Source: an uncultured Eubacteriales bacterium
Lineage (GTDB): Bacteria; Bacillota; Clostridia; Christensenellales; Aristaeellaceae
DNA length: 64,000 bases
Assembly: GCA_900315315.1 (NCBI GenBank)
Contig: OMYT01000010.1
Span: forward strand, 1-64,000
Reading direction: 5' to 3'
The position numbers were made by a program, and so were the translations under genes. The number at the start of each line of letters is the position of its first letter. Position 1 is the stretch's first letter. This document shows positions 5,319-23,309 of the stretch, piece by piece. The notes below the pieces were generated by a model. The model was not told where the DNA came from and did no database searches. It saw nothing but the letters and a program-made list of their open reading frames with translations.

Positions 5319-6818
5319 ATGCGTAAACTGGTTGCTTTGCTGTTAGCTCTTTCGCTGGTGCTGGGCCTTGCGTCCACCGCATTTGCCGCAAAGGACTATA
5401 CACTGGACATCTACTGGATCGGAAACAAGGATGACGAAGAGATCCGCAAGGGTGTGGAAGAGGCCGTCAGCGAATATGTTGAACCGCTGATCAAGGCAAA
5501 GGTCGCCTACCACATCATCAACTGGGACGACTGGACCGAGAAGGCCCTGAAGCCCCTGCTGGAAGACGAGAAGATCGACCTGATCTTCACGGCTGACTGG
5601 CGGGACTATGTGCAGGAGATCCTGGCCAACAAGCTGCTGCCGCTGGACGACCAGCTGGAGCAGAACGGAAAGGATATTCTGGAAACCCTGCCGCAGGCAT
5701 TCCTGGACGGCGCAAAGTTCAACGGTGTGCTGTACGGTATTCCGACCAACAAGGAACTGTGCGTGCCCAGCGGCCTGATTGTGAACAAGACGGCAGCCGA
5801 GCAGATCGGCTGGGATCCGGAAAAGGATCCGGTGAAAACCACGGAAGAGCTGGAACCCTATCTGGCCAAATACAAGGAAATGTTCCCGGACCGCTATCCC
5901 TACCTGATGGAAAAGGACCGCTGGTCTGACGAACCCTGGATCCATGAATGGGCCGCCATCGAGGGCGATGCGCTGGACATGAAGATGGCCGCCGATGAGA
6001 ACGGCGAGTTTGACGAAACCATCTACAGCATTTATGAAACAGATGAGCAGGAAGCCCATATCCGCCTGATGCGCAAGTGGGCGGAAGCCGGCTATATCTC
6101 TCCGGAAGCGGCAAATCCCGATTTTGACTACAACAAGGTTTTCGGCACGGGCGAATTCCTGGTGTTCACCCAGCCGCTGAAGGGCAACAACATCAAGTCC
6201 GTGGAGATGTACGGGGCCAACAAGGCGCCGGATGTACCGGACTTTGAGCTGTGCGAGATCATCCTGCAGGACAAGTATCTGGTGACGAACCAGGCCGGCG
6301 GGTCCATGTTCGCGATCCCGAAGACCGGCAAGGCCAAGGCGGCTATGAAGTATCTGAACCTGATGCACAGCGATCCCACGCTGGTGAACCTGATGCTCTA
6401 CGGCAAGGAAGGCGTGAACTACAAGAAGGTCAACGACCAGCAGGTTGAGCTGATCGACGACGCCAACTGGTATGGCCTGCACGGCGGCGCCTGGACCGTG
6501 GGCAACACCAAGCTGCAGTATGTGCTGACCACCGAGGATCCGGAAAAGAACGCGATGCTGCAGTCCTACGCGGACGACGCGAAGAAGACTGCTTCCTACG
6601 GTTTCCGTCTGGACAGAAGCAAGTGTCAGGAACAGCTGGATGCCGTGGCGGAAGTGGTGAAGAAGTATGAGCGCGGGCTGATGGTCGGCGCGGTGGATCC
6701 GGACGATCCAGAACTTGGCCTGGAAGCGTTCCGCAAGGCGCTGAAGGATGCGGGGATTGATGAGCTGAAGGCGGAAGTTGAAGCGCAGTATGCTACGTGG
6801 AAGGATTCATTAAAGTAA
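5319..6818 (+). CDS. Extracellular solute-binding protein with DUF3502 C-terminus (LipO type)
   Basis: Secreted binding protein, 499 residues, with signal peptide MRKLVALLLALSLVLG and type I cleavage after AFA; again no lipobox Cys. The C-terminal 60 residues (YGFRLDR...WKDSL) match the DUF3502 domain found in LipO-like binding proteins of complex-carbohydrate importers. A strong AAGGAGG lies 8 nt before the ATG. No permease genes accompany it; it follows the alpha-glucosidase gene by 77 bases and may be cotranscribed with it, feeding a transporter encoded elsewhere. Substrate is unknown; a saccharide is the reasonable inference. Confidence 0.85.
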   Translation: MRKLVALLLALSLVLGLASTAFAAKDYTLDIYWIGNKDDEEIRKGVEEAVSEYVEPLIKAKVAYHIINWDDWTEKALKPLLEDEKIDLIFTADWRDYVQEILANKLLPLDDQLEQNGKDILETLPQAFLDGAKFNGVLYGIPTNKELCVPSGLIVNKTAAEQIGWDPEKDPVKTTEELEPYLAKYKEMFPDRYPYLMEKDRWSDEPWIHEWAAIEGDALDMKMAADENGEFDETIYSIYETDEQEAHIRLMRKWAEAGYISPEAANPDFDYNKVFGTGEFLVFTQPLKGNNIKSVEMYGANKAPDVPDFELCEIILQDKYLVTNQAGGSMFAIPKTGKAKAAMKYLNLMHSDPTLVNLMLYGKEGVNYKKVNDQQVELIDDANWYGLHGGAWTVGNTKLQYVLTTEDPEKNAMLQSYADDAKKTASYGFRLDRSKCQEQLDAVAEVVKKYERGLMVGAVDPDDPELGLEAFRKALKDAGIDELKAEVEAQYATWKDSLK

Positions 6819-10765: not shown

Positions 10766-13036
10766 TTACAGCTGGTTCCTCTGAATCTTCCCGGAAATCG
10801 TCTTGGGCAGCTCCTCCCGGAACACGATCTTCCGCGGATACTTGTACGGCGCGGTATGTTCCTTCACATACTGCTGAATCTCTTTCTTGAGTTCCTCGGT
10901 GCCCTCCGTCCCCTTCGTCAGCACAATGGACGCCTTGACGATCTGGCCGCGCACTTCGTCCGGCTCGGCGGATACGCCGCATTCCAGCACATAGGGCAGC
11001 TCCATGATCACGGATTCAATCTCGAACGGTCCGATGCGGTAGCCGGAGGACTTGATTACGTCGTCAATCCGGGAGACATACCAGAAGTAGCCGTCCTCAT
11101 CCCGCCAGGCCGTATCGCCGGTATGATACAGCCCGTCGTGCCAGGCTTCCTTCGTCTTTTCTTCGTCCAGATAATACTCGCGGTAAAGGCCGCAGGGTGT
11201 CGTTTTGTCCGTGTGAATCACGATTTCGCCCACTTCGCCGTTGGCCACGGGGTTGCCGTCCGGGTCCACGATGTCCACGTCATACTGCGGGCTGGCCTTG
11301 CCCATGGAGCCGATCTTCGGCACGGTACCGTACAGGTTGCCGATGGTCAGCGTCGTCTCCGTCTGGCCGAAGCCCTCCATGATCTTCAGACCCGTCGCCT
11401 TTTCAAACTGGCGGAAAACTTCCGGATTCAGCGCCTCGCCGGCGGTGGTCATATGATGGATGGAACTGAGGTCGTAGTTTTCCAGATCCACCTTGATGAA
11501 CATTCGCAGCATCGTGGGCGGCGCGCAGAAGGTCGTGATATTGTATTTTTTGAACATCGGCAGGATGTCCGCGGCGTCAAACTTGTCAAAGTCATATACA
11601 AACACTGCGCCTTCGCACAGCCACTGGCCGTACAGCTTGCCCCACAGGGATTTGCCCCACCCGGTATCGGAGATTGTCAGGTGCAGGCCGTCCCGCTCGC
11701 AGCAGTGCCAGTATTTGGCCGTGACATAGTGGCCCAGGGCGTAGGTATGCTTGTGCTGCGCCATCTTCGGGTTGCCGGTCGTTCCGGAGGTGAAGAACAT
11801 GAGCGCCGGTTCATCTCCGCAGGAAGCGTCCTCCGGCCGGCGATAGCGGCGGGTGAACAGCGGATATTCCGCGTTCAGGTCGTGCCAGCCCTCCCGGGTG
11901 CCGTTGACCATGATCAGAGTCTCGACAGACGGGCATTTCGCGGCAGCACGCTCGGCGATCTCGGCTGTGTCGCCGTCCGCCGTGCAGATCAGCGCCTTCA
12001 CGCCGGCGGCGTTGAACCGGTATTCAAAATCATGCTCCTTCAGCTGGTTGGTCGCCGGGATGGCGATGGCGCCGAGCTTGTGCAGGGCTACCATGGCAAA
12101 CCAGAACTGGTAATGCCGTTTCAGCACCAGCATCACCCGGTCGCCCCGGCGGATCCCGAGGGAGGTAAAGTAGTTCGCGCACTGGTTGGACGCATCCTTC
12201 ACGTCCTTGAAGGTGAAGCGGCGTTCCTGATGGTGCTTGTCCACATAAAGCATGGCCAGCTTGTCCGGATACTCCCGGGCAATCCCGTCCACAATGTCAA
12301 AGCCGAAGTTGAAGGTCTCCGCGTTCGGGAAGCTGATGGCGGTCAGCCTGCCCTGTTCATCCTCTTTGGCGTCGATGAACTTGGAGGCGATCAGGTGAGC
12401 TTTTTCCCGAACGGGCATCGGCGCCTCGACCGTTTCCGTCTCGGGCTGGGGCGCCTCCCGGGGCAGGATCATCGCGAGGAAAACGCAGTCCTTCCCGTCC
12501 ACCGCGATCATCCCGTGCGGCAGGGAGGAGTTGTAGTAGATGCTGTCGCCCTCGTGCAGAATCTCCGTATGATCGCCGACCTGCACCTTCAGCGTGCCGG
12601 AGAGCACCAGGTCAAATTCCTGGCCTCTGTGAGTCGTCGTATGGATCGGTTCGCTCTGCTGCTTTTCGGAATATTCATAGCGGACCCAGTAAGGTTCCGC
12701 CGCCTTGTCCCGGAATTTGGGCGCAAGGTTTGAGATGGCGATGCCTTCCTCCTTCGCGGTGGTCTCGCCCTTGCCGCGGCGGGTCACCGTATAGGTGGAC
12801 AGGAAAGCATTATGGCCTTCCAGCAGTTCCGTCAGCTCCATGTTGAAGGCCTGGGCGGACTTGTAGATGAAGGTGAAGGGCATATCCGTCTGACCGGCTT
12901 CATAAAGCTCGTATTCCGCCGGGGTGACTTCCGTCTTCTCCGCCATTTCCTCCGGGGTCCATCCCATAATCTCCCGCATCTCACGCAAACGGGAAGCGAT
13001 TGCCTGCAGCTGGTTGAGATCGGTCTGGGTATTCAT
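10766..13036 (-). CDS. XRE HTH - cupin - acyl-CoA synthetase (AMP-ligase) fusion
   Basis: 756 residues from ATG 13036 (GGGAGG upstream). Residues 10-70 are an XRE-type helix-turn-helix, 115-195 a cupin barrel (metal-type His in IHTTTHRGQE and LPHGM), and 240-756 an acetyl-CoA synthetase-like adenylate-forming enzyme with P-loop FTSGTTGNPK (415-424), the GYRIGPFEIES hinge region and catalytic Lys750 in TISGKIQR. HTH-cupin proteins are normally regulators, so one polypeptide seems to combine sensing and carboxylate activation as acyl-CoA. Acyl substrate unknown; the adjacent liv transporter suggests a branched-chain or amino-acid-derived carboxylate. Expression is controlled by a T-box leader. 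A helix-turn-helix could also be a degenerate protein-interaction domain. Confidence 0.9.
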   Translation of the reverse strand: MNTQTDLNQLQAIASRLREMREIMGWTPEEMAEKTEVTPAEYELYEAGQTDMPFTFIYKSAQAFNMELTELLEGHNAFLSTYTVTRRGKGETTAKEEGIAISNLAPKFRDKAAEPYWVRYEYSEKQQSEPIHTTTHRGQEFDLVLSGTLKVQVGDHTEILHEGDSIYYNSSLPHGMIAVDGKDCVFLAMILPREAPQPETETVEAPMPVREKAHLIASKFIDAKEDEQGRLTAISFPNAETFNFGFDIVDGIAREYPDKLAMLYVDKHHQERRFTFKDVKDASNQCANYFTSLGIRRGDRVMLVLKRHYQFWFAMVALHKLGAIAIPATNQLKEHDFEYRFNAAGVKALICTADGDTAEIAERAAAKCPSVETLIMVNGTREGWHDLNAEYPLFTRRYRRPEDASCGDEPALMFFTSGTTGNPKMAQHKHTYALGHYVTAKYWHCCERDGLHLTISDTGWGKSLWGKLYGQWLCEGAVFVYDFDKFDAADILPMFKKYNITTFCAPPTMLRMFIKVDLENYDLSSIHHMTTAGEALNPEVFRQFEKATGLKIMEGFGQTETTLTIGNLYGTVPKIGSMGKASPQYDVDIVDPDGNPVANGEVGEIVIHTDKTTPCGLYREYYLDEEKTKEAWHDGLYHTGDTAWRDEDGYFWYVSRIDDVIKSSGYRIGPFEIESVIMELPYVLECGVSAEPDEVRGQIVKASIVLTKGTEGTEELKKEIQQYVKEHTAPYKYPRKIVFREELPKTISGKIQRNQL

Positions 13037-13072
13037 CTTGACTTTCCTCCCATCAAACACATTTGAAATAAA

Positions 13073-13334
13073 ATGACCCGTCTCTGCTTTGAGACGGGTC
13101 ATCTGACTCGCGGTACCACTCAAATTGCGCGCCTTTGCGCACCACTTCAGGCACTGACATGCCCTATGCATTTACGCAGCATTCACGGGAGACGCCTACA
13201 AGGATTCGCGATCCGTTCGGATCTCCGGCTCAGAAGGGATGGGATGAAGCTTCAGCCCGCCGGTTCACACCACACCCGGCTCTCTGCGGGGCCTCCCGCT
13301 GTTCCGTCTTCGTCACAGCCTTGCTATGAAATTG
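13073..13334 (-). promoter_or_regulatory. T-box riboswitch leader
   Basis: About 260-nt leader on the minus strand between promoter and the acyl-CoA ligase gene. The T-box core GAGTGGTACCGCG is at 13121-13109, followed by an intrinsic terminator: arms 13102-13091 and 13084-13073 (12 bp) with a TTTTATTT run. Upstream are a Stem I with AGAGAG and a GGTGTGAACCGG apical segment and a Stem III hairpin GATCCGAACGGATC. T-boxes bind uncharged tRNA and allow readthrough on amino acid starvation. The likely specifier region is GAAGCTTCATCC; GCT (Ala) or TTC (Phe) are possible codons and I cannot decide between them by eye. Confidence 0.9.
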
Positions 13335-13339
13335 ACCGA

Positions 13340-13368
13340 ATTCTATCACAGGAAATCCCGGTTGTCAA
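13340..13368 (-). promoter_or_regulatory. Promoter of the T-box leader
   Basis: On the minus strand TTGACA (13368-13363), 17-bp spacer, TAGAAT (13345-13340). It begins only 16 bases after the livF stop codon, so the ligase has its own promoter although it follows the liv operon in the same direction. I see no terminator between livF and this promoter. Confidence 0.88.
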
Positions 13369-13383
13369 TACGCACCTGAATAT

Positions 13384-14133
13384 TCAGCTGCCGAGGTAGG
13401 CTTTGCGGACGTCGTCATTTTGGAGAAGCTCGGCGGCATTACCGGACATGGAGATGGCGCCGGTTTCCAGGACGTAGGCCCGGTTGGCGACGGAAAGGGC
13501 CATCTGGGCATTCTGCTCCACGAGGAGGATGGTGACGCCGGAGTTGTGCATTTCCTCAATAATACTGAAAATCTGATCCACAAGGATCGGGGCAAGGCCC
13601 ATGGAGGGTTCATCCAGCATGAGCAGCTTCGGGCGGCTCATCAGCGCCCGGGCCATGGCCAGCATCTGCTGCTCGCCGCCGGAGAGGGTGCCGCCGATCT
13701 GCTTTTCACGCTCTTTGAGGCGGGGAAAGCGGCCGAAGACATCCTCAAGGGAGGCTTCGATCTCTTCCCTGGGGCGGCTGAAAGCGCCCATTTCAAGATT
13801 TTCCCGGACGGTCATGTGCTGGAAGATCCGGCGACCTTCCGGGCAGAGACTCAGGCCCTTGTAAACCATCTTTGAAGCACCGGTGCCGTCCACAGGGACA
13901 CCGCCCAGGACGATGGAGCCCTGTCGGGGTTTCAGCAGGCCGGCGATGGTGTTCAAAGTAGTGGATTTCCCGGCACCGTTCGCGCCGATCAGGGTCACAA
14001 TTTCGCCCTCATGCACTTCCAGGGAGATGCCTTTGACCGCATGGATGGCGCCGTAGTATACGTGCAGGTCCTTTACCTTCAGCAGAGGCAGGTCCTGTTC
14101 CCGAACGGCGGCATTCGGATTATTCTCGCTCAT
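13384..14133 (-). CDS. livF: Branched-chain amino acid ABC transporter ATPase LivF
   Basis: Cytoplasmic ATPase, 249 residues, last gene of the liv operon. Walker A GANGAGKST, signature LSGGEQQMLAMARAL, Walker B LLMLDEPSMGLAP and the switch His replaced in the usual LivF fashion (ILLVEQN). It pairs with LivG to power import of Leu, Ile, Val and related amino acids. Two bases separate it from livG. Preceding gene order and protein lengths are those of a standard HAAT-family transporter. Confidence 0.96.
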   Translation of the reverse strand: MSENNPNAAVREQDLPLLKVKDLHVYYGAIHAVKGISLEVHEGEIVTLIGANGAGKSTTLNTIAGLLKPRQGSIVLGGVPVDGTGASKMVYKGLSLCPEGRRIFQHMTVRENLEMGAFSRPREEIEASLEDVFGRFPRLKEREKQIGGTLSGGEQQMLAMARALMSRPKLLMLDEPSMGLAPILVDQIFSIIEEMHNSGVTILLVEQNAQMALSVANRAYVLETGAISMSGNAAELLQNDDVRKAYLGS

Positions 14134-14135
14134 CT

Positions 14136-14996
14136 TCAGCCCTCCTTTTTCTTGCCCAGATAGGCTTCGATGACGGCGGGGTTTGCCTGGATCTCATCGG
14201 CGGTTCCCTTGGCGATGACTTTGCCGAAGTTCAGGACGCAGATGCCCTCGCAGACACCCATGACGAGACTCATGTCATGTTCAATGAGAAGGATCGCGAT
14301 CTGGAACTGATCCCGGATCTTCGCAATGTTTTCCATGAGCTCTTCAGTCTCATGGGGATTCATGCCGGCGGCAGGCTCATCCAGGAGGAGGAGCTTCGGA
14401 TCGGTTGCGAGGGCACGGACGATCTCCAGACGGCGCTGGGCCCCGTAGGGCAGGCTGCCGGCGGTTTCATCCGCCAGATCCTGCATGCCGAAGATATCCA
14501 GGAGCTCCATGGCCCGCTCGTGCTGGCGCTTCTCCTGCTTCCAGTAACGGGGCAGGCGGAGGATGCCGGTGAACATATCGTAGCGGATCTGATTATGCAG
14601 GCCGATGCGGACATTTTCTTCCACAGTCATCTTGTCAAAGAGGCGGATGTTCTGGAAGGTACGGGCGATGCCCAGACGGGAGGCCTGAACAATGCTCATG
14701 CCGTGCAGATCCTGCCCGTTGATCAGTACTGCGCCGGTGGTGGGCTCATAGACCTTGGTCAGGAGATTGAAGACGGTGGTCTTTCCGGCGCCGTTGGGGC
14801 CGATAAGGCCGGCGATCTCCGTTTTGCCGATGGTCAGGTTGAAATCATCAACCGCCTTCAGGCCGCCGAACTCGATGCCCAGATGGCGGGTCTCCATGAC
14901 CGGGATTTCATCGACATCCCGCTCGGGAATGATGGAATGGGAAGGCACCGGGACCATTTTGGTATCGGAACGATGTTTCTTTGGCTTCTGCGTCAC
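14136..14996 (-). CDS. livG: Branched-chain amino acid ABC transporter ATPase LivG
   Basis: ATPase of 286 residues with GTG start in a GTGA overlap with the livM stop and GGAGGAGG ahead. A 30-residue N-terminal extension rich in Lys and Pro precedes the usual start of the family. Walker A GPNGAGKTT, the LivG-type signature LPYGAQRRLEIVRAL, Walker B LLLLDEPAAGMN and switch LIEHDM are all intact. Works as heterodimer with LivF below the LivH/LivM pore. Confidence 0.96.
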   Translation of the reverse strand: MTQKPKKHRSDTKMVPVPSHSIIPERDVDEIPVMETRHLGIEFGGLKAVDDFNLTIGKTEIAGLIGPNGAGKTTVFNLLTKVYEPTTGAVLINGQDLHGMSIVQASRLGIARTFQNIRLFDKMTVEENVRIGLHNQIRYDMFTGILRLPRYWKQEKRQHERAMELLDIFGMQDLADETAGSLPYGAQRRLEIVRALATDPKLLLLDEPAAGMNPHETEELMENIAKIRDQFQIAILLIEHDMSLVMGVCEGICVLNFGKVIAKGTADEIQANPAVIEAYLGKKKEG

Positions 14997-16078
14997 TTGA
15001 CGTCACCTCCTCCGGCGGTTTCCCCGCGATTTTTACGGACAAGCTTTTTCGCCGGGGAAGCAAGCCTGTTGACGAAAGCACGGGTCGTCGGGTTGTTGGT
15101 AAAGATCATGACCAGGATCAGCACAACCGCGTAGACCAGCATGCGGTAATCCGCGAATTCCCGCAGGACTTCCGGCAGAATGGTGAGGAAGGTGGCGGAG
15201 ATGATGGAGCCCAGGACGTTGCCCAGACCGCCGAGCACCACGAAGACCAGCACGTTGATGGACTGGTTGAAGGTGAACTGGGTCGGGACGACGGTGGAGG
15301 AATTCAGGCCGTAGAGCGCGCCGGCCATTCCGGCCAGGACGGCGGCGGTGACGAAGGCCATCATCTTATACTTGGTTACGGAAACGCCCATCGACTCTGC
15401 AGCGATACGGTTGTCCCGGGTGGCCTGGATGGCGCGGCCCGCGCGGGAATTGACCAGGTTCAGGACAACAATCAGGGTGATCAGGATCAGGACGAAACCC
15501 ACCTCAAAGGTGGAGATCGGCTTGATTTTGACCGCGCCCTTGGCTCCGTCCACCAGCATGGTGACACCGGCGGGGAGTTTCTCCTTGTTCAGGAAGGCGA
15601 AGTGCAGTTTTCCGTTTGCGGTGCCGATATAGAGGACGTTAACCAGATTCCGGATAATTTCGCCGAAGGCCAGCGTCACGATGGCCAGATAGTCGCCCCG
15701 GAGACGGAGGACCGGAATACCGATGAGCACGCCGAAGATGCCGGCGAGGATTCCGCCGGCGAGAATCGCCAGCACCAGGCGCAGGAGGGGATCCTGCATG
15801 TCAAAGGCCGACAGGAGCCAGCCGCTGACAACCGCGCCGGTATAAGCGCCGATGCTCATGAAGCCGGCATGGCCGAGGCTGAGCTCTCCGGAAAAGCCGA
15901 TGACCAGATTCAGGGAGACCGCCATGATGATCCAGGCGCAGATGGGCACCAGCTGGCCCTTCAGGGAACGGCTGATGGCCTTGGCGGAGATCATGTTTTC
16001 CAGGATGATGAAGGCCACGATGACCAGGCCGAAGGTGACCAGGTTGTAGATGAGGCGTTTGCGCTTTGCTTTCGTCAT
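14993..16078 (-). CDS. livM: Branched-chain amino acid ABC transporter permease LivM
   Basis: Inner-membrane permease, 361 residues, about ten spans. The start at 16078 is chosen because GAGGTGAGG lies 6 nt upstream and this leaves a 10-base gap after livH; a longer frame to 16102 would overlap livH without a ribosome site. The family motif PVLRLRGDYLAIVTLAFGEI is present near the middle, as are NPTTRAFVNR and a basic C-terminal tail. Partner of LivH. Confidence 0.95.
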   Translation of the reverse strand: MTKAKRKRLIYNLVTFGLVIVAFIILENMISAKAISRSLKGQLVPICAWIIMAVSLNLVIGFSGELSLGHAGFMSIGAYTGAVVSGWLLSAFDMQDPLLRLVLAILAGGILAGIFGVLIGIPVLRLRGDYLAIVTLAFGEIIRNLVNVLYIGTANGKLHFAFLNKEKLPAGVTMLVDGAKGAVKIKPISTFEVGFVLILITLIVVLNLVNSRAGRAIQATRDNRIAAESMGVSVTKYKMMAFVTAAVLAGMAGALYGLNSSTVVPTQFTFNQSINVLVFVVLGGLGNVLGSIISATFLTILPEVLREFADYRMLVYAVVLILVMIFTNNPTTRAFVNRLASPAKKLVRKNRGETAGGGDVK

Positions 16079-16088
16079 ATTCCTCACC

Positions 16089-16967
16089 TCACACTTTCTC
16101 ACGCATGGGCTTGCCCAGCAGGCCGGCGGGCTTGACCAGGAGCACGATGATCAGCACGGCGAAGACGATGGCGTCCCCCAGCTCGGTGGAGATATAGGCC
16201 TTGCCGAAAATCTCGATCACGCCGAGGAGAATACCGCCCAGCATGGCCCCGGGGATTGACCCGATGCCGCCGAAGACGGCGGCGGTGAAGGCCTTGATGC
16301 CCGGCATGGAACCGGTGGTGGGCTGCAGGATGGGATAAGAGGAGCAGAGCAGAATGCCGGCGATGGCCGCCAGCGCGCTGCCGATGGCGAAGGTGAGGGA
16401 GATGGTCCGGTTGACGTTGATTCCCATCAGCTCCGCGGCGCCCCTGTCTTCCGATACGCAGCGCATGGCTTTGCCCAGCTTGGTCTTGGAGGTGAAGAGG
16501 GTCAGGCCGACCATGATGACCACATTAGCCAGGATCGTAATAATCGTGGCGGTGGAGATGTTCAGCTGGCCCAGGCGGATGCTGCTGCCGTTGATGAAGG
16601 TGGTGGGGAAGGACTTGGGGTTGGCTCCCCAGATCATCAGGGCGATGTTCTGCAGCAAATAGCTTACGCCGATAGCGGTGATCAGCACGGCGAGGGAAGC
16701 CGCCTGCCGCAGAGGACGGTAGGCGAGGCCCTCGATCGTGATGCCCAGGATGGTGCAGGCGACCATGGCGACCAGAATGGCCAGGACCGGGGGGAAGCCC
16801 CAGTACTGCAGGCCGCAGAAGGCGATATAGGCGCCGACCATGATGACGTCGCCGTGAGCAAAGTTCAGCATCTTGGCGATGCCGTAGACCATGGTGTAGC
16901 CGAGGGCGATGATTGCGTAGATGCTGCCCAGGCTGAGGCCGTTAATCAGATGATCAAGAAAAATCAT
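16089..16967 (-). CDS. livH: Branched-chain amino acid ABC transporter permease LivH
   Basis: Permease of 292 residues, about eight spans, beginning with the typical LINGLSLGSIYAIIALGYTMVYGI motif of LivH proteins. Conserved loops RPLRQAASLA and GAAELMGINVNR dock the ATPases. Separated from livJ by 176 bases that hold a stem-loop and two dispersed hairpin elements, which should lower livHMGF transcript levels relative to livJ. Confidence 0.96.
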   Translation of the reverse strand: MIFLDHLINGLSLGSIYAIIALGYTMVYGIAKMLNFAHGDVIMVGAYIAFCGLQYWGFPPVLAILVAMVACTILGITIEGLAYRPLRQAASLAVLITAIGVSYLLQNIALMIWGANPKSFPTTFINGSSIRLGQLNISTATIITILANVVIMVGLTLFTSKTKLGKAMRCVSEDRGAAELMGINVNRTISLTFAIGSALAAIAGILLCSSYPILQPTTGSMPGIKAFTAAVFGGIGSIPGAMLGGILLGVIEIFGKAYISTELGDAIVFAVLIIVLLVKPAGLLGKPMREKV

Positions 16968-16976
16968 AAGCTTGAT

Positions 16977-17063
16977 GCGAGGGCTTTCCGGTCGCCCTCG
17001 CGCTCCTTCGGGGATTTCGCGGCTGCGGCCGCGACCAGGGCTTTCCGATCGCCCTGGACCTTC
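16977..17063 (+). repeat. Two tandem hairpin elements, TTTCCG(A/G)TC-loop family
   Basis: Copy at 16977-17001: stem GCGAGGGC/GCCCTCGC around TTTCCGGTC. Copy at 17036-17058: stem CCAGGGC/GCCCTGG around TTTCCGATC. The loops match the family while both stems differ from other copies in a compensated way. Each is followed by CCTTCGG. They sit in the livJ-livH gap in reverse orientation to transcription. Confidence 0.85.
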
Positions 17064-17096
17064 GGCTTCCGCTTAATATTTTTGAAAACGAGCGAA

Positions 17097-17119
17097 ACCG
17101 GTCCTGAAAGAGGACCGGT
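17097..17119 (-). terminator. Attenuating stem-loop after livJ
   Basis: Perfect 9-bp stem ACCGGTCCT/AGGACCGGT with 5-nt loop, 25 bases after the livJ stop on the minus strand, followed by TTCGCTCGTTTTC. The weak T-run suggests partial termination or protection of the livJ 3' end, a common way to make binding protein in excess over permeases. Confidence 0.65.
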
Positions 17120-17143
17120 CCGCAAAAGAACTTACGGGATCAA

Positions 17144-18271
17144 TTACTTGAAGACATAGACACCGTTCTCGATGGTGGCGGCCATAGGCGTCTTGGTGAC
17201 GGCGCCGGACTCGTCCCAGGTCATGGAACCGGTGATGCCGTCCACCTGGATTTCCTTCATGGCGGCGATCAGCAGGTCGCAGGCTTCCTCGGGCGTGGTG
17301 TCGGCGGTGATGCCGGCCTTTTCGGCGGCGGCAACCAGGATGTAGATGCCGTCATAGGCGTCGGCAGCGAACTGAATGGGAGTCTCGCCGAACTTGTCTT
17401 CATACAGCTTGACGAAGTTCGCAACCTTGGCATCTTCAGAGGTGGCGACGAAGGGGGTCAGCAGCATGACGCCCTCTGCCAGGGAGGTGTCGAAACCTTC
17501 CACGGACAGGATGCCGTCCATGCCGTCCACACCGAAGAAGATTGGCTTGTAGTTCTTGTCAGCCGCGGTCTTCAGGATCAGGGAAGCGGGGGTGTAGTAC
17601 ATGGGCAGGAAGACGATTTCGGCGCCGGCTTCCTGGGCCTTGCCGACCTGGACGGTGAAGTCCGTGGTCTCATCGGTGAAGGTCTCCTCGCTGACGATTT
17701 CCAGGCCGAGGCCGGGAGCCTTTTCCACAAAGGTATCACGGATGCCGGTGGAATACACGTCGGCGTTGTTGTAGATCACGGCGATCTTGGTGCCCAGCTT
17801 GTGCTCAGCGATGTACTCAGCGGAGGCGGCACCCTGGTTCGGGTCGGTGAAGCAGACCTGGAAGACGTTGTCCTTGTCTTCGATGACGGCGGTGGAGGAA
17901 GCGGAGGGGGTCAGGAAGAACACACGGTCCGTGTATCCCTGAGCACCCGCGGCTTCACAAGGCTTGGAAGTGGTGGAACCGAGAATCATCTGGGCGCCGG
18001 CATCCAAAGCGGCGTTGTAGGCGTTGATGACCTTTTCCACATTGTGCTCGTCATCTTCATCGATCAGTTCGATCTTGTACTTTCCGCCGGCGGCGTTGAT
18101 TTCATCCACGGCGATCTGGGCACCGCGGCTGGTGGCGATACCGTACAGGGCGGCAGGGCCGGTCAGCGGGCCGATATGGGCGATCTTCAGAGTAATCGGC
18201 TCCTCAGCGAAGGCGGAGCAGACGGTCAGCGCCAGAACCAGCGCCAGAGCCAGAGCAATCAGCTTTTTCAT
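17144..18271 (-). CDS. livJ: Branched-chain amino acid-binding protein LivJ/LivK
   Basis: Extracellular binding protein, 375 residues. The start at 18271 has GAGGAGG 8 nt upstream and opens with signal peptide MKKLIALALALVLAL; the longer frame is in the promoter leader. A Cys occurs in LTVCSAFA, but the residue before it is Val and a type I site (AFA-EE) follows, so lipidation is doubtful. The mature protein has the family sequence ITLKIAHIGPLTGPAALYGIATSRGAQIAVDEINAAGG. First gene of the liv operon and expected to be its most abundant product. Confidence 0.94.
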   Translation of the reverse strand: MKKLIALALALVLALTVCSAFAEEPITLKIAHIGPLTGPAALYGIATSRGAQIAVDEINAAGGKYKIELIDEDDEHNVEKVINAYNAALDAGAQMILGSTTSKPCEAAGAQGYTDRVFFLTPSASSTAVIEDKDNVFQVCFTDPNQGAASAEYIAEHKLGTKIAVIYNNADVYSTGIRDTFVEKAPGLGLEIVSEETFTDETTDFTVQVGKAQEAGAEIVFLPMYYTPASLILKTAADKNYKPIFFGVDGMDGILSVEGFDTSLAEGVMLLTPFVATSEDAKVANFVKLYEDKFGETPIQFAADAYDGIYILVAAAEKAGITADTTPEEACDLLIAAMKEIQVDGITGSMTWDESGAVTKTPMAATIENGVYVFK

Positions 18272-18311
18272 GAATGTTTCCTCCTCAATAAATTTAGGTA
18301 CAATAAAGGCA

Positions 18312-18331
18312 ACAAAGCTTCCTTGCTTTGT
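18312..18331 (-). other. Leader hairpin of livJ
   Basis: Perfect 7-bp arms ACAAAGC (18312-18318) and GCTTTGT (18325-18331) with a 6-nt loop near the 5' end of the livJ mRNA. Could be a stabilising 5' hairpin or a regulatory site; nothing decides. Confidence 0.5.
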
Positions 18332-18338
18332 ATCGCCC

Positions 18339-18366
18339 ATTATACACCGGAATTTCGGTGAGTAAA
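18339..18366 (-). promoter_or_regulatory. liv promoter with operator-like palindrome in its spacer
   Basis: On the minus strand TTTACT (18366-18361), 16-bp spacer, perfect TATAAT (18344-18339). The entire 16-bp spacer (18345-18360) is an inverted repeat, CACCG...CGGTG with a one-mismatch AT-rich centre. A protein bound there would block RNA polymerase, so this is the likely control point of the operon. Confidence 0.72.
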
Positions 18367-18434
18367 GTGTTTTCATTGTTTTTTAAAAGGGGGCTTTCCG
18401 GCCAGTGAAAATATTTCAAAAATATTTCAAAACC

Positions 18435-20626: not shown

Positions 20627-22852
20627 TTATTCCGCAAGGGCTGCCTTATACAGCGCTTCCAGCTTTTCGTAGCTCAGAGGCGCCTGGGCGTGGTAGGTCA
20701 CGACGCCCTGCGGATTCAGGACAATGGTCGAGGGCAGCGCCTCCGAGACATTCAGGAGCTTCATGATGCCCTTTTCCTTGCTGTCGGTGGCAAAGTCCAG
20801 GTGGTCCCAGCCCTTATCTTCGAGGAATTCTTTGGCCTTCTTGGCACCGGCTTTGGCATGGATGGCCAGGATCTCCACATCGGGATAAGCAACTTTCAGC
20901 TTCTCGTATTCCGGGAGTTCCGCAATGCACGGCGCGCAGGTGGTGCCCCAGAAGTTGAGGATGACGACGTGTCCCCGGTGATCCGACAGTTTGAAGTCGC
21001 CCCCATTCAGCAGATCCGTGGAGAAGTCCGGCAGCAGGCTGCCCTCAGCCGAGCCCACCGGCAGGTTTGCGGCCGGCGCCGCAGCTGCTTCAGGAGCTGC
21101 TTCCGCAGTTTCCTCCGCAGCCGCTTCCGGAGCCGTTTCCCCGGTTCCCTCCGCGGTTGATTCCGGAGCCGCTTCAGTTACGGTACCGTCAGTTTTTCCC
21201 TGATCGTCCGCCAGCGCCGCCTTATACAGCGTTTCCAGCTTTTCGTAGCTCAGGGGCGCCTGGGCGTGGTAGGTTACGACGCCCTGCGGATTCAGGACAA
21301 TGGTCGAGGGCAGCGCTTCCGAGACGTTCAGGAGCTTCATGATGCCCTTTTCCTTGCTGTCGGTGGCAAAGTCCAGGTGGTCCCAGCCCTTATCTTCAAG
21401 GAATTCTTTGGCCTTCTTGGCGCCGGCTTTGGCGTGGATGGCCAGGATTTCCACATCGGGATAAGCGACTTTCAGCTTTTCGTACTCCGGGAGTTCCGCA
21501 ATGCACGGCGCGCAGGTGGTGCCCCAGAAGTTGAGGATGACGACGTGCCCCCGGTGATCCGACAGGTTGAAGTCACCTCCGCTGAGCAGATCCGTGGAGA
21601 AGTCCGGCAGCAGATTTCCGACTTCCGAGCCTGCCGGCAGGCTGACGGCAGCGGTCTGAGGTTTTGCTGTTTTGTCCGCTTCGGATTCTTTTGTTTCCGG
21701 GGCGGCTTTTGTTTCGGCCGAACCGGTTTCGACGGCAACCTGCTCAGTAACGGCGGCCTGTTCCGTTACAGCCGCCGCGGCTGCCGGCTCATCCGCCTTT
21801 TCCAGGGCCGGTTCAATGAAATTGAACCAGCACAGGGCGAAGACCAGCACCGCAATGGCGACACCCCAGACAATCCGCACGATCTTCTTCCGCTTCTGAA
21901 CGACCGGTTCCGGATCGGCGTTCCTGCCGGTCTCCGGCCCCTTCAGGGTGATCTTCCCGCACTTCAGGGAGATTGCCCCCTGGGCGCAGGTGCTGATGCA
22001 CTTGCCGCAGGAGATACATTCGTGGTCCCCAACATGTCTGACATCCATCTGACACTTCATCACGCACAGGCCGCAGCCGTTGCAGCGGTCCGGGTTCACT
22101 TTGACGCCCGTCAGCGCGAAGCGGTTGAAGAAACCGTAGATCGCGCCCAGCGGGCAGATGAACCGGCAGAAGGAACGGTAGCAGAAGATACAGGCCAGAC
22201 CGATGACCAGCATGATGACCCATTTGTTGGTGAACACCGACCCCAGCTGGTAAAAGGAGGTGGCGTTGGCCGGATTCTGCAGCAGGCCCACCGCGCCCTC
22301 AAAGGTGCCGGCCGGACAGATGTATTTGCAGAAGCCGGGCAGGATAATGCCCCTGCCCACGCCGAAGATCAGCGGGATGGCGATGACAAACACCGCCAGG
22401 AAGACATATTTCAGGTAGGAGAGCTTCCGGGTGATGTGGCTTTTGCGGATCTTCGGGGTCGGGATCTTATGCAGCAGCTCCTGGATCAGGCCCAGGGGGC
22501 AGATCCAGCCGCAGATCGTCCGGCCCAGGATGACGCCGAAGAGCGCCAGAATGCCCAGGACATACCAGGGCGCGGTATGCCCGGCGGCGTTCAGGGCGTT
22601 CTGCAGGGAACCCAGGGGGCAGCTGGCGACGGCGCCCGGACAGGAATAGCAGTTAAAGCCCGGCACGCAGACCGACTTCAGGCTGCCCGTGTAAATATGG
22701 CCGTCAATGAAGCCTTTCAGATTCGCGTTATACAGCAGGGCGGCATACAGCTGGACCAGGCGGCGGGTTCCCGGACGCTGCATCTTTTCCCGTTTGGTTT
22801 CGGGAGCCTTCTTATCGAGGGTTTTGTTTTCGTTATTGATCGTATTATCCAA
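20627..22852 (-). CDS. Membrane 4Fe-4S protein fused to two TlpA thioredoxin domains
   Basis: 741 residues from a TTG start at 22852, which overlaps the upstream stop and has GGAG about 10 nt before it; the first internal ATG is at 22783. Residues 24-250 are a NapH/CcoG-like membrane part with CPLG/CP motifs; 257-289 hold two 4Fe-4S sets (Cys257, 260, 263, 267; 279, 282, 285, 289). After a last span (about 325-345) come two TlpA/ResA-like thioredoxin domains (about 411-546 and 603-738), each with a WGTTCAPC active site (Cys447/450 and 639/642). They are almost identical in protein and DNA. Inferred role: electrons from a ferredoxin-type centre pass over the membrane to extracytoplasmic thiol-disulfide chemistry, with the CXXC partner encoded just upstream. 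Confidence 0.88.
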   Translation of the reverse strand: MDNTINNENKTLDKKAPETKREKMQRPGTRRLVQLYAALLYNANLKGFIDGHIYTGSLKSVCVPGFNCYSCPGAVASCPLGSLQNALNAAGHTAPWYVLGILALFGVILGRTICGWICPLGLIQELLHKIPTPKIRKSHITRKLSYLKYVFLAVFVIAIPLIFGVGRGIILPGFCKYICPAGTFEGAVGLLQNPANATSFYQLGSVFTNKWVIMLVIGLACIFCYRSFCRFICPLGAIYGFFNRFALTGVKVNPDRCNGCGLCVMKCQMDVRHVGDHECISCGKCISTCAQGAISLKCGKITLKGPETGRNADPEPVVQKRKKIVRIVWGVAIAVLVFALCWFNFIEPALEKADEPAAAAAVTEQAAVTEQVAVETGSAETKAAPETKESEADKTAKPQTAAVSLPAGSEVGNLLPDFSTDLLSGGDFNLSDHRGHVVILNFWGTTCAPCIAELPEYEKLKVAYPDVEILAIHAKAGAKKAKEFLEDKGWDHLDFATDSKEKGIMKLLNVSEALPSTIVLNPQGVVTYHAQAPLSYEKLETLYKAALADDQGKTDGTVTEAAPESTAEGTGETAPEAAAEETAEAAPEAAAAPAANLPVGSAEGSLLPDFSTDLLNGGDFKLSDHRGHVVILNFWGTTCAPCIAELPEYEKLKVAYPDVEILAIHAKAGAKKAKEFLEDKGWDHLDFATDSKEKGIMKLLNVSEALPSTIVLNPQGVVTYHAQAPLSYEKLEALYKAALAE

Positions 22853-23309
22853 GGCCAACACACTCCGTACAGATGGTGGCGCCTTTGGCCAGCACGTCCT
22901 CCAGCCCGCCATTGAGAATTCCCGCGACGATCAGGCCCACCGCCAGCGCGATCACCGCGACGCGAAGATAGAGTTCACTCTGGGTTGCAACCTGGTGAAC
23001 CGCTTTTTCCCGGATGCTGCCCTGATCCCGCAGGAGTTTTTCATCCCGCACGGGCTTGTCCGCCTTTTCATCTTTGATGCCCAGGATCAGGCCGGAGACC
23101 GTCATCCCGAAGGCGCAGAACAAAAGCGGCAGGATGGGCAGCAGCTTGGCGCCGACCCTTTCCCGGGTGTACATGTAGTAGAACAGATCCCCTTCAGCCT
23201 GCTTTGCCGCGCCGTCAAAATACAGACAGAGCGCGGAGGCTGCCAGCAGCCCCGCGATCAGCGCGCAAAGCAGGGACTGAACGATCAGGAATGTTTTTTT
23301 GCGTGTCAA
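22845..23309 (-). CDS. CD1871A-type CXXC membrane protein with N-terminal extension
   Basis: 154 residues from TTG 23309. The in-frame ATG at 23324 would contain the ribosome site itself (ATGGAGGTGA), so TTG, 8 nt after GGAGG, is the better start. Three hydrophobic spans (about 5-28, 45-68 and 105-125). The C-terminus, RVAVIALAVGLIVAGI...GATICTECVGLG, matches the CD1871A family, whose members end in CTECxGLG and are usually only 40-50 residues; here about 100 residues precede it. The gene overlaps the next one by 8 bases. The CTEC pair near the membrane surface is a plausible relay to the TlpA domains. Confidence 0.82.
   Translation of the reverse strand: MTRKKTFLIVQSLLCALIAGLLAASALCLYFDGAAKQAEGDLFYYMYTRERVGAKLLPILPLLFCAFGMTVSGLILGIKDEKADKPVRDEKLLRDQGSIREKAVHQVATQSELYLRVAVIALAVGLIVAGILNGGLEDVLAKGATICTECVGLG

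Follow-up and report, generated by a model that had tools for sequence, protein, structure and literature searches.

A T-box leader with an isoleucine codon upstream of a proposed 2-methylbutyryl-CoA synthetase in an uncultured Eubacteriales bacterium

Why should a gene for an acyl-CoA ligase be preceded by a T-box leader, and which amino acid would such a leader report? The question is raised by a stretch of 64,000 nucleotides (the window) from an uncultured Eubacteriales bacterium with relatives that inhabit the ruminant gut, and whose 4.26-Mb assembly of 197 contigs is 89% complete. A gene on the minus strand (10766..13036) encodes a protein of 756 amino acids composed of an XRE helix-turn-helix, a cupin and an AMP-forming acyl-CoA ligase, with matches over the cut-off to HTH_19, Cupin_2, AMP-binding and AMP-binding_C. 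The leader of this gene occupies positions 13037-13368, and all of its parts lie on the minus strand, a point to be added to the preliminary description of the locus, which gave no strand.

The leader begins with a promoter (13340..13368, minus strand) formed by TTGACA at 13368-13363 and TAGAAT at 13345-13340, separated by 17 nt and with a TG before the −10 box. This promoter had been called perfect; it is present, with 11 of 12 consensus matches. Sites of equal quality are expected 0.3 times in the shuffled region, and TTGAC(A/G) is found at the equivalent place in the aligned leaders of relatives. The Rfam search that had been proposed as a check matched the leader over the full RF00230 model (13087..13325, minus strand) with 68.0 bits and an E value of 1.7e-14. 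The gathering score of 93 is not reached, so that membership in the T-box family follows from the E value only and a default Rfam scan lists no T-box at this site. An overlapping weak match to RF02617 (28.8 bits, E value of 0.003) spans the T-box core and the terminator hairpin.

The individual parts of a T-box can be read in the sequence. The core GAGTGGTACCGCG, which had been claimed from the start, was found at 13109..13121 (minus strand, running from 13121 to 13109) and also occurs in the aligned relatives. The window leader carries a UGGU bulge, which by the pairing rule would presumably fit a tRNA with A73. Pairing over 30 leaders places two hairpins before the core (13127..13164, minus strand), GGGCA/TGCCT and GTGCGC/GCGCGC, one of which corresponds to the Stem III hairpin described previously. 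The 12-bp terminator hairpin, ATGACCCGTCTC/GAGACGGGTCAT followed by TTTATTT (13073..13102, minus strand), is plain in the sequence at 13102-13073, as had been reported, though a simple terminator scan of the region listed no terminator, this hairpin included. The minimum-free-energy fold holds it in part, with 10 pairs in one run, and the fold of the whole leader has a z score of −4.28, none of 200 shuffles being equally stable. The 5' arm of the terminator is common to the antiterminator, as in a terminator/antiterminator switch. A ribosome-binding site (GGAGG) and the ATG at 13036 come next on the same strand, confirming that the leader stands directly before the XRE-cupin-ligase gene. It is close to certain that this leader is a real T-box. 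This genome has eight T-box matches, four of them over the cut-off.

Stem I (13227..13320, minus strand) presents an AGAGAG bulge in its upper helix and a GGTG distal loop. Its pairs include GGCT (13320-13317) with AGCC (13230-13227), GAAG (13311-13308) with CTTC (13236-13233), and GGA (13305-13303) with TCC (13244-13242). In 30 leaders, hand-picked by us from the isoleucine group, 90.8 to 100% of the cells in Stem I helices 1 to 4 are paired; helices 1, 3 and 4 show changes on both sides, and helix 2 is invariant. The GGGCA/TGCCT hairpin is 98% paired, with both-side changes in all five pairs, the antiterminator helix is 96.2% paired, and the GTGCGC/GCGCGC hairpin has 50.3% of its cells paired on the same alignment. 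Over all 37 pairs drawn, 89.2% of the cells are paired against a shuffle mean of 79.2, and 134 cells carry two-sided changes where shuffles give 49.1, whereas sliding the alignment by one to three columns leaves only 31 to 55% paired. This comparison of leaders shows that the structure is not due to chance.

The specifier codon, for which GCT or TTC had been favored, is instead read as AUC (isoleucine) by the Rfam alignment and by comparison with 150 homologous leaders, in agreement with the clade of the ligase (see below). The triplet occupies 13238..13240 on the minus strand, one base before the CTTC of the basal helix. The comparison used a scan for any triplet followed, after a single base, by a pyrimidine tetramer and GAGC-like bases, and the 150 leaders include duplicates (e.g., L006/L009 and L022/L039). 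The scan retrieved 86 ATC, 43 GTA and 4 GTC triplets, with 3 leaders misplaced and 14 unmatched. Inspection by eye assigned these 17 leaders to ATC (2) or to valine codons (15) and corrected one GTA (L110) to GTC, so that scan and eye together give 88 ATC and 62 valine codons. Three other triplets available within GAAGCUUC, namely, GCU (alanine), CUU (leucine) and UUC (phenylalanine), were rejected because the bases GCTTC are conserved in close relatives only and AUC is conserved more widely. Applied by eye elsewhere in this genome, the same rule retrieves UAC before tyrS and ACC before thrS. Stem I displays a codon for a plausible tRNA, and tRNA-Ile(GAU) is present in the single-contig relative G023; it was not seen in the 36 scanned loci of the 89% complete assembly, with some tRNA matches falling outside these loci. 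The window specifier is almost certainly AUC. The available part of the TBDB paper (PMC7778990) counts back from the end of the specifier bulge to place the codon at positions 2 to 4 and reports AUC as preferred for isoleucine, and the window leader agrees on both counts.

Covariation is also seen in the helix immediately above the triplet. Of 77 isoleucine leaders, 73 retain the third pair of this helix against 34.5 in shuffles, and the signal is weaker in 57 valine leaders, where 39, 40, 39, 38 and 42 are kept at five positions against shuffle values of 33.9, 30.7, 30.1, 26.8 and 24.6. Since an ATC or GTN triplet was the condition for including these 77 and 57 leaders, it is circular that the triplet is invariant in these pairing and entropy counts, and no weight is placed on it. 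The window leader resembles the T-boxes of RF00230 in its core, its Stem I with an AG bulge and a GGUG loop, its UGGN bulge and its terminator/antiterminator, but differs in the specifier loop, which consists of 2 nt (A-C) opposite 5 nt (Y-AUC-N). T-box specifier loops usually contain AGUA opposite GAA, a motif that is not treated here as obligatory. This S-turn or loop E motif was not found in the window, in the isoleucine leaders viewed or in most of the valine leaders viewed, and the Rfam alignment of the window leader has a 7-nt deletion at the place where it would be; its loss may explain the low Rfam score. In this genome, the tyrS leader does have AGUA. The valine leaders of L103, L110 and L116 (Erysipelotrichaceae/Solobacterium records) keep both AGUA and GAA in the specifier loop, so that its reduced form may be a derived state. 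Our impression, and no more than that, is that T-boxes stripped in this way are new.

The leader is not peculiar to the window. A T-box core is found within 430 nt upstream of 145 of the 164 homologous ligase genes that have at least 350 nt of upstream sequence, and L028, L048 and L087 have a core with one mismatch 92 to 172 nt upstream. The 16 genes without a core comprise 8 that are second of a pair, 4 that lie behind a LeuA-like/TIM-ligase pair (described below), and 4 with no evident reason (the first genes of L030 and L102, and L033 and L057). In a FastTree phylogeny of 160 ligases, of which 19 rows have no codon, a single branch with a support of 100 separates 87 isoleucine-coded from 54 valine-coded proteins, and none of 500 shuffles was as low. 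Within the valine clade, GUA, GUC and GUG require at least six changes among themselves. This genome carries both types, the window ligase with AUC and a sister ligase on contig C159 with GUC; in four relatives, the valine ligase reads GUA by eye. The proposed check of whether homologues bear T-boxes with the same codon gives a positive answer for the T-box itself, and for AUC in one clade only, the sister clade having valine codons. The central proposal of the preliminary description, a T-box that controls an acyl-CoA ligase fusion and ties it to a single amino acid, is supported, and the tie is conserved in many relatives. This argues that the leader is not a relic, and inheritance from a lost gene was rejected in view of the frequency of the core and of codons that follow the clades.

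Among more distant relatives, a set of ten loci of which eight were submitted to Rfam (L202 being the operon of genome G047 and L204 having no ligase at the coordinates used), L196 to L201 and L203 (44 to 50% identity) gave no T-box and L205 (about 54% identity) gave a weak one of 39 bits, so that seven of the eight are without an Rfam T-box. In some distant relatives the XRE-cupin part is a separate open reading frame. The valine leader of L005 (G000:C159, about 5667-5932) contains a tandem duplication, with CGCGAGTAGAGCCTTCCCGATCA repeated, downstream of Stem I.

The likely substrate was approached through the nearest characterized proteins. The best NCBIfam model of the ligase is MbcS (NF047394), with 445.1 bits against an equivalog cut-off of 850; the model aligns to residues 252-756 only, leaving the XRE-cupin part outside. 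The best solved relative is PDB 3ETC, the structure of MacsMa, with 615 bits against 337 for the next structure and with residues 239-754 aligned. MacsMa of Methanosarcina acetivorans favors 2-methylbutyrate, according to the accessible portion of PMC10455477. It differs from the window protein in being archaeal and in aligning outside the XRE-cupin part, but shares with it a glycine at the place of Gly461. From these similarities, the window ligase is proposed to be a 2-methylbutyryl-CoA synthetase; its shortfall from the MbcS cut-off speaks against the proposal.

A role in lipid synthesis has to be weighed at this point. MbcS of Staphylococcus aureus uses 2-methylbutyrate and isobutyrate, uses isovalerate poorly, and serves lipid synthesis (PMC10026030, in the part available). 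As the nearest NCBIfam model, it raises the alternative that the window ligase provides the starter units, as branched acyl-CoAs, of membrane fatty acids, in which case amino acid shortage would be merely a proxy, since branched acyl-CoAs normally derive from branched amino acids. We regard this as unlikely, because it leaves unexplained the split of isoleucine and valine codons by clade, the operon with VorB and IlvE, and the absence over the cut-off of ilvC, ilvD and leuB in the genus (both described below). The window ligase differs from MbcS in its score (445 against 850) and in its extra XRE-cupin part.

We consider it highly probable that the ligase with the AUC T-box serves to make isoleucine from 2-methylbutyrate, its sister to make valine, and a linked operon to make leucine. 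A transcriptional T-box would read tRNA-Ile through the AUC specifier, and uncharged tRNA-Ile would allow the antiterminator to form and the ligase gene to be transcribed. The ligase, converting ATP to AMP, would turn 2-methylbutyrate into 2-methylbutyryl-CoA, from which a VorB-type 2-oxoacid:ferredoxin oxidoreductase working in reverse would produce 3-methyl-2-oxopentanoate, and an IlvE-type transaminase would complete the route to isoleucine. The sister ligase, under its valine-coded T-box, would take isobutyrate to valine by a like route, and an operon with a LeuA-like gene and a TIM-barrel-ligase fusion, under a leucine-coded T-box, would probably serve leucine. The substrates of the ligases, the direction of the oxidoreductase and the response to tRNA are what we infer from these sequences. 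The link between tRNA charging and carboxylate activation that had been suggested holds insofar as a T-box sits on a ligase gene, but would not extend beyond amino acid supply, the ligase being probably the first step of synthesis.

The gene neighborhood in relatives gives strong support to a pathway from branched acids to amino acids, as judged from context. The genes for VorB, the beta and gamma subunits and a P-loop protein lie downstream of the ligase on the same strand in 39 of 45 loci (those, among 80, with at least 5 kb downstream), and IlvE is also downstream in 31 of the 45. The same-strand oxidoreductase set is missing from L039, L040, L043, L054, L113 and L117; in L039 and L113 the oxidoreductase genes are on the opposite strand. 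In L041, the locus that was scanned, VorB and IlvE are over their curated cut-offs. The row in G047 reads LeuA-like, TIM-ligase, T-box (AUC), ligase A, T-box (GUA), ligase B, IlvE, P-loop gene, VorB, beta and gamma. VorB is over the cut-off in 34 of 37 genomes of the genus (missing in G009, G025 and G028), and a strong ligase match is found in 35 of 37 (not in G031 and G034). In this genome, VorB is over the cut-off on contig C122 with a gamma-type subunit beside it. It counts against the route that the window ligase stands alone here and that VorB lies on a different contig, separated by more than 20 kb from the T-boxes found on that contig. The gene set for reductive carboxylation (ligase, VOR-type oxidoreductase and transaminase) is thus found via the operon of the relatives. 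The P-loop protein, of 220 amino acids (12931-13590 in L041, and related loci), adjoins the oxidoreductase genes in the 39 operons and has no match in Pfam (E value of 1e-5) or NCBIfam (E value of 1e-10). A carbon-nitrogen hydrolase gene lies inside some operons (10268-11062 in L063, and a few other loci).

The same enzymes could be imagined to run the other way, degrading branched-chain amino acids for energy under a T-box that is repurposed or a relic. VOR-type enzymes are reversible, the transaminase is common to both directions, and this genome has a liv importer upstream of the ligase. We nevertheless give this catabolic role very little credence, because a T-box that switches on at amino acid shortage has the wrong sign for it, an AMP-forming ligase costs ATP, and the core is kept at 145 of 164 genes with codons that track the clades.

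Further support for the route comes from the gene content of the genus. None of the 37 genomes of the genus has ilvC, ilvD or leuB over the cut-off, compared with 10, 11 and 12, respectively, of 24 genomes from other families. Many genomes of the genus are incomplete, but G001, G002, G023 and G035 are 97 to 99% complete, and by these cut-offs the classical pathway is missing. Below the cut-off, ilvD-like matches occur in G004, G014, G016 (a fragment), G024, G027 and G033, five of them at 503 to 510 bits, leuB-like matches of 240 to 251 bits occur in G015, G016 and G021, and two genomes have ilvC matches of about 20 bits. All 14 control genomes gave a signal for each family; the absence of leuB weighs less, as just 9 of the 14 pass the leuB cut-off. 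In the 24 genomes from other families of the order, ilvC and the ligase rarely coincide (1 with both, 9 with ilvC only, 11 with the ligase only and 3 with neither; Fisher P = 0.0028), in a table compiled by hand with a ligase E value of <1e-80 that includes relatives matching only after the XRE-cupin part. The one genome with both ilvC and the ligase is G048.

Residues that distinguish the two clades are concentrated in the N-terminal part of the protein. With fixed differences defined as at least 85% in each clade and at most 5% crossing, 13 columns separate the clades; 12 are found up to residue 230, and the ligase domain has one, Gly461/Ala. Lowering the limit to 80% gives 17 columns, the ligase domain then having Gly461 and Gly476, and a limit of 70% gives 30, of which 8 are from residue 231 on. 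This distribution, together with the matches to the helix-turn-helix and cupin models, would fit a protein that is mainly a regulator, its XRE-cupin part binding DNA and the T-box setting its level. Such a role seems quite improbable to us, given that the operon context is metabolic and that the ligase domain is the better conserved part (about 75% within clades and 70% between them, compared with 60 to 64% and 44% for the N-terminal part). The better conservation of the ligase domain also means that the N-terminal contrast between clades partly reflects faster change.

Position 461 is glycine in 86 of 87 coded and 11 of 11 uncoded rows of the isoleucine clade, and alanine in 54 of 54 coded and 8 of 8 uncoded rows of the valine clade. 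It aligns with Gly255 of MacsMa, four residues before Trp259, with a numbering offset of 23 derived by hand from Gly459-Tyr460-Lys461 and Arg490 in the 3ETC alignment. The larger pocket that Gly461 would leave may suit the larger acid. Six of seven distant ligases also have alanine at this position (L205 has glycine), so that Ala461 alone is no marker of a valine enzyme.

A broader scheme can be put forward tentatively, as one we find possible but would not yet expect to hold in full. Lineage-wide salvage of branched fatty acids would replace classical synthesis, with branches wired to tRNA, ligases with dual inputs and a Gly461/Ala switch. The isoleucine-, valine- and leucine-coded T-boxes would then label the ligase genes by substrate, the XRE-cupin sensor, diverged with the substrate class, could read the branched acid or its CoA ester, and Gly461/Ala may set 2-methylbutyrate against isobutyrate.

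About 20 of the 80 loci have the leucine branch close to the ligases, in the form of a LeuA-like gene followed by the TIM-barrel-ligase fusion. At L131 (92-4047; G000:C168) and in about 20 related loci, this fusion joins an AP_endonuc_2 TIM barrel to an AMP-forming ligase. A core is present upstream of 11 of 20 LeuA-like genes examined, and five of the nine others have less than 300 nt upstream. In 9 of the 11 leaders the scan reads CUC, CUG or CUU, although 6 of these 9 offered other triplets and the basal helix decided the choice; for L103 and L110, inspection by eye gives CUG. Of four further LeuA-like fragments, CUC is read in L091 (where the scan offered a second candidate), in L105 and, by eye, in L072, and no core was found in L107. 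The triplet of the leucine operon is CUG by eye both in this genome and in four relatives, with a less clear 5' partner of the basal helix. A T-box before leuA is mentioned in the available part of PMC2700814. The case for a leucine-coded linked operon appears good, but softer than the isoleucine and valine readings. A further T-box, with the core AGGTGGTACCACG, occurs in four relatives (L226, L228, L232 and L233).

Branched volatile fatty acids have reportedly been given as feed supplements in yak trials, and we know of no genetic handle on the bacterial genes that carry branched acids into amino acids or on their control. In the rumen, several microbes, methanogens among them, require branched volatile fatty acids or benefit from them, and the methanogens use branched acids for isoleucine and leucine (PMC10658910, in the part available); the conversion of 2-methylbutyrate to isoleucine is called a probable route for Methanobrevibacter ruminantium in the accessible text of PMC2812497. 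The present case differs in being bacterial and in placing the ligases under amino-acid-coded T-boxes. No publication tying a T-box to branched acyl-CoA ligases or to VOR was found among the matches listed, in a search of papers as distinct from the entries of TBDB, and the searchable portions of three T-box papers (PMC2494555, PMC7778990 and PMC3766115) mention neither acyl-CoA nor CoA ligase by term; ketoisovalerate and oxidoreductase do not occur in the first two, nor ferredoxin in the third. Compared with the T-boxes in the papers so searched, the window leader has a different class of target, an acyl-CoA ligase. This target class and the match of codon to clade are new as far as the open-licence literature with the term T-box shows. 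With a regulator that indicates the product, the acid used by each ligase would be predictable from the specifier codon. Reading the codon therefore offers a way to annotate many uncharacterized ligases and to predict, for uncultured bacteria, the acids on which they depend, and the comparison of clades makes substrate choice testable at one residue.

The surroundings of the ligase gene in the window add minor observations. Its upstream neighbor is a liv-type branched-chain amino acid ABC importer (13384..18376, minus strand), recognized from open reading frames of which the first and last were scanned; these end genes resemble LivF and LivK, although neither reaches the curated cut-off of its named model. 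This adjacency had been noted from the start. Among the genus loci L009 to L026, with a flank of at most 1.5 kb, livF stands beside the ligase only at the window locus; the importer was rejected as a part of the system and looks incidental. Just after the −10 box of the leader, AATTTCATA (13333-13325, minus strand; L002) is shared by most isoleucine leaders of the genus and by the leucine leader of this genome, and it is possibly an operator or a transcript start element. Elsewhere in the window, the translation of an open reading frame at 20627-22912 (minus strand) presents cysteine-rich ferredoxin-like motifs and two near-identical tandem TlpA-like thioredoxin domains.
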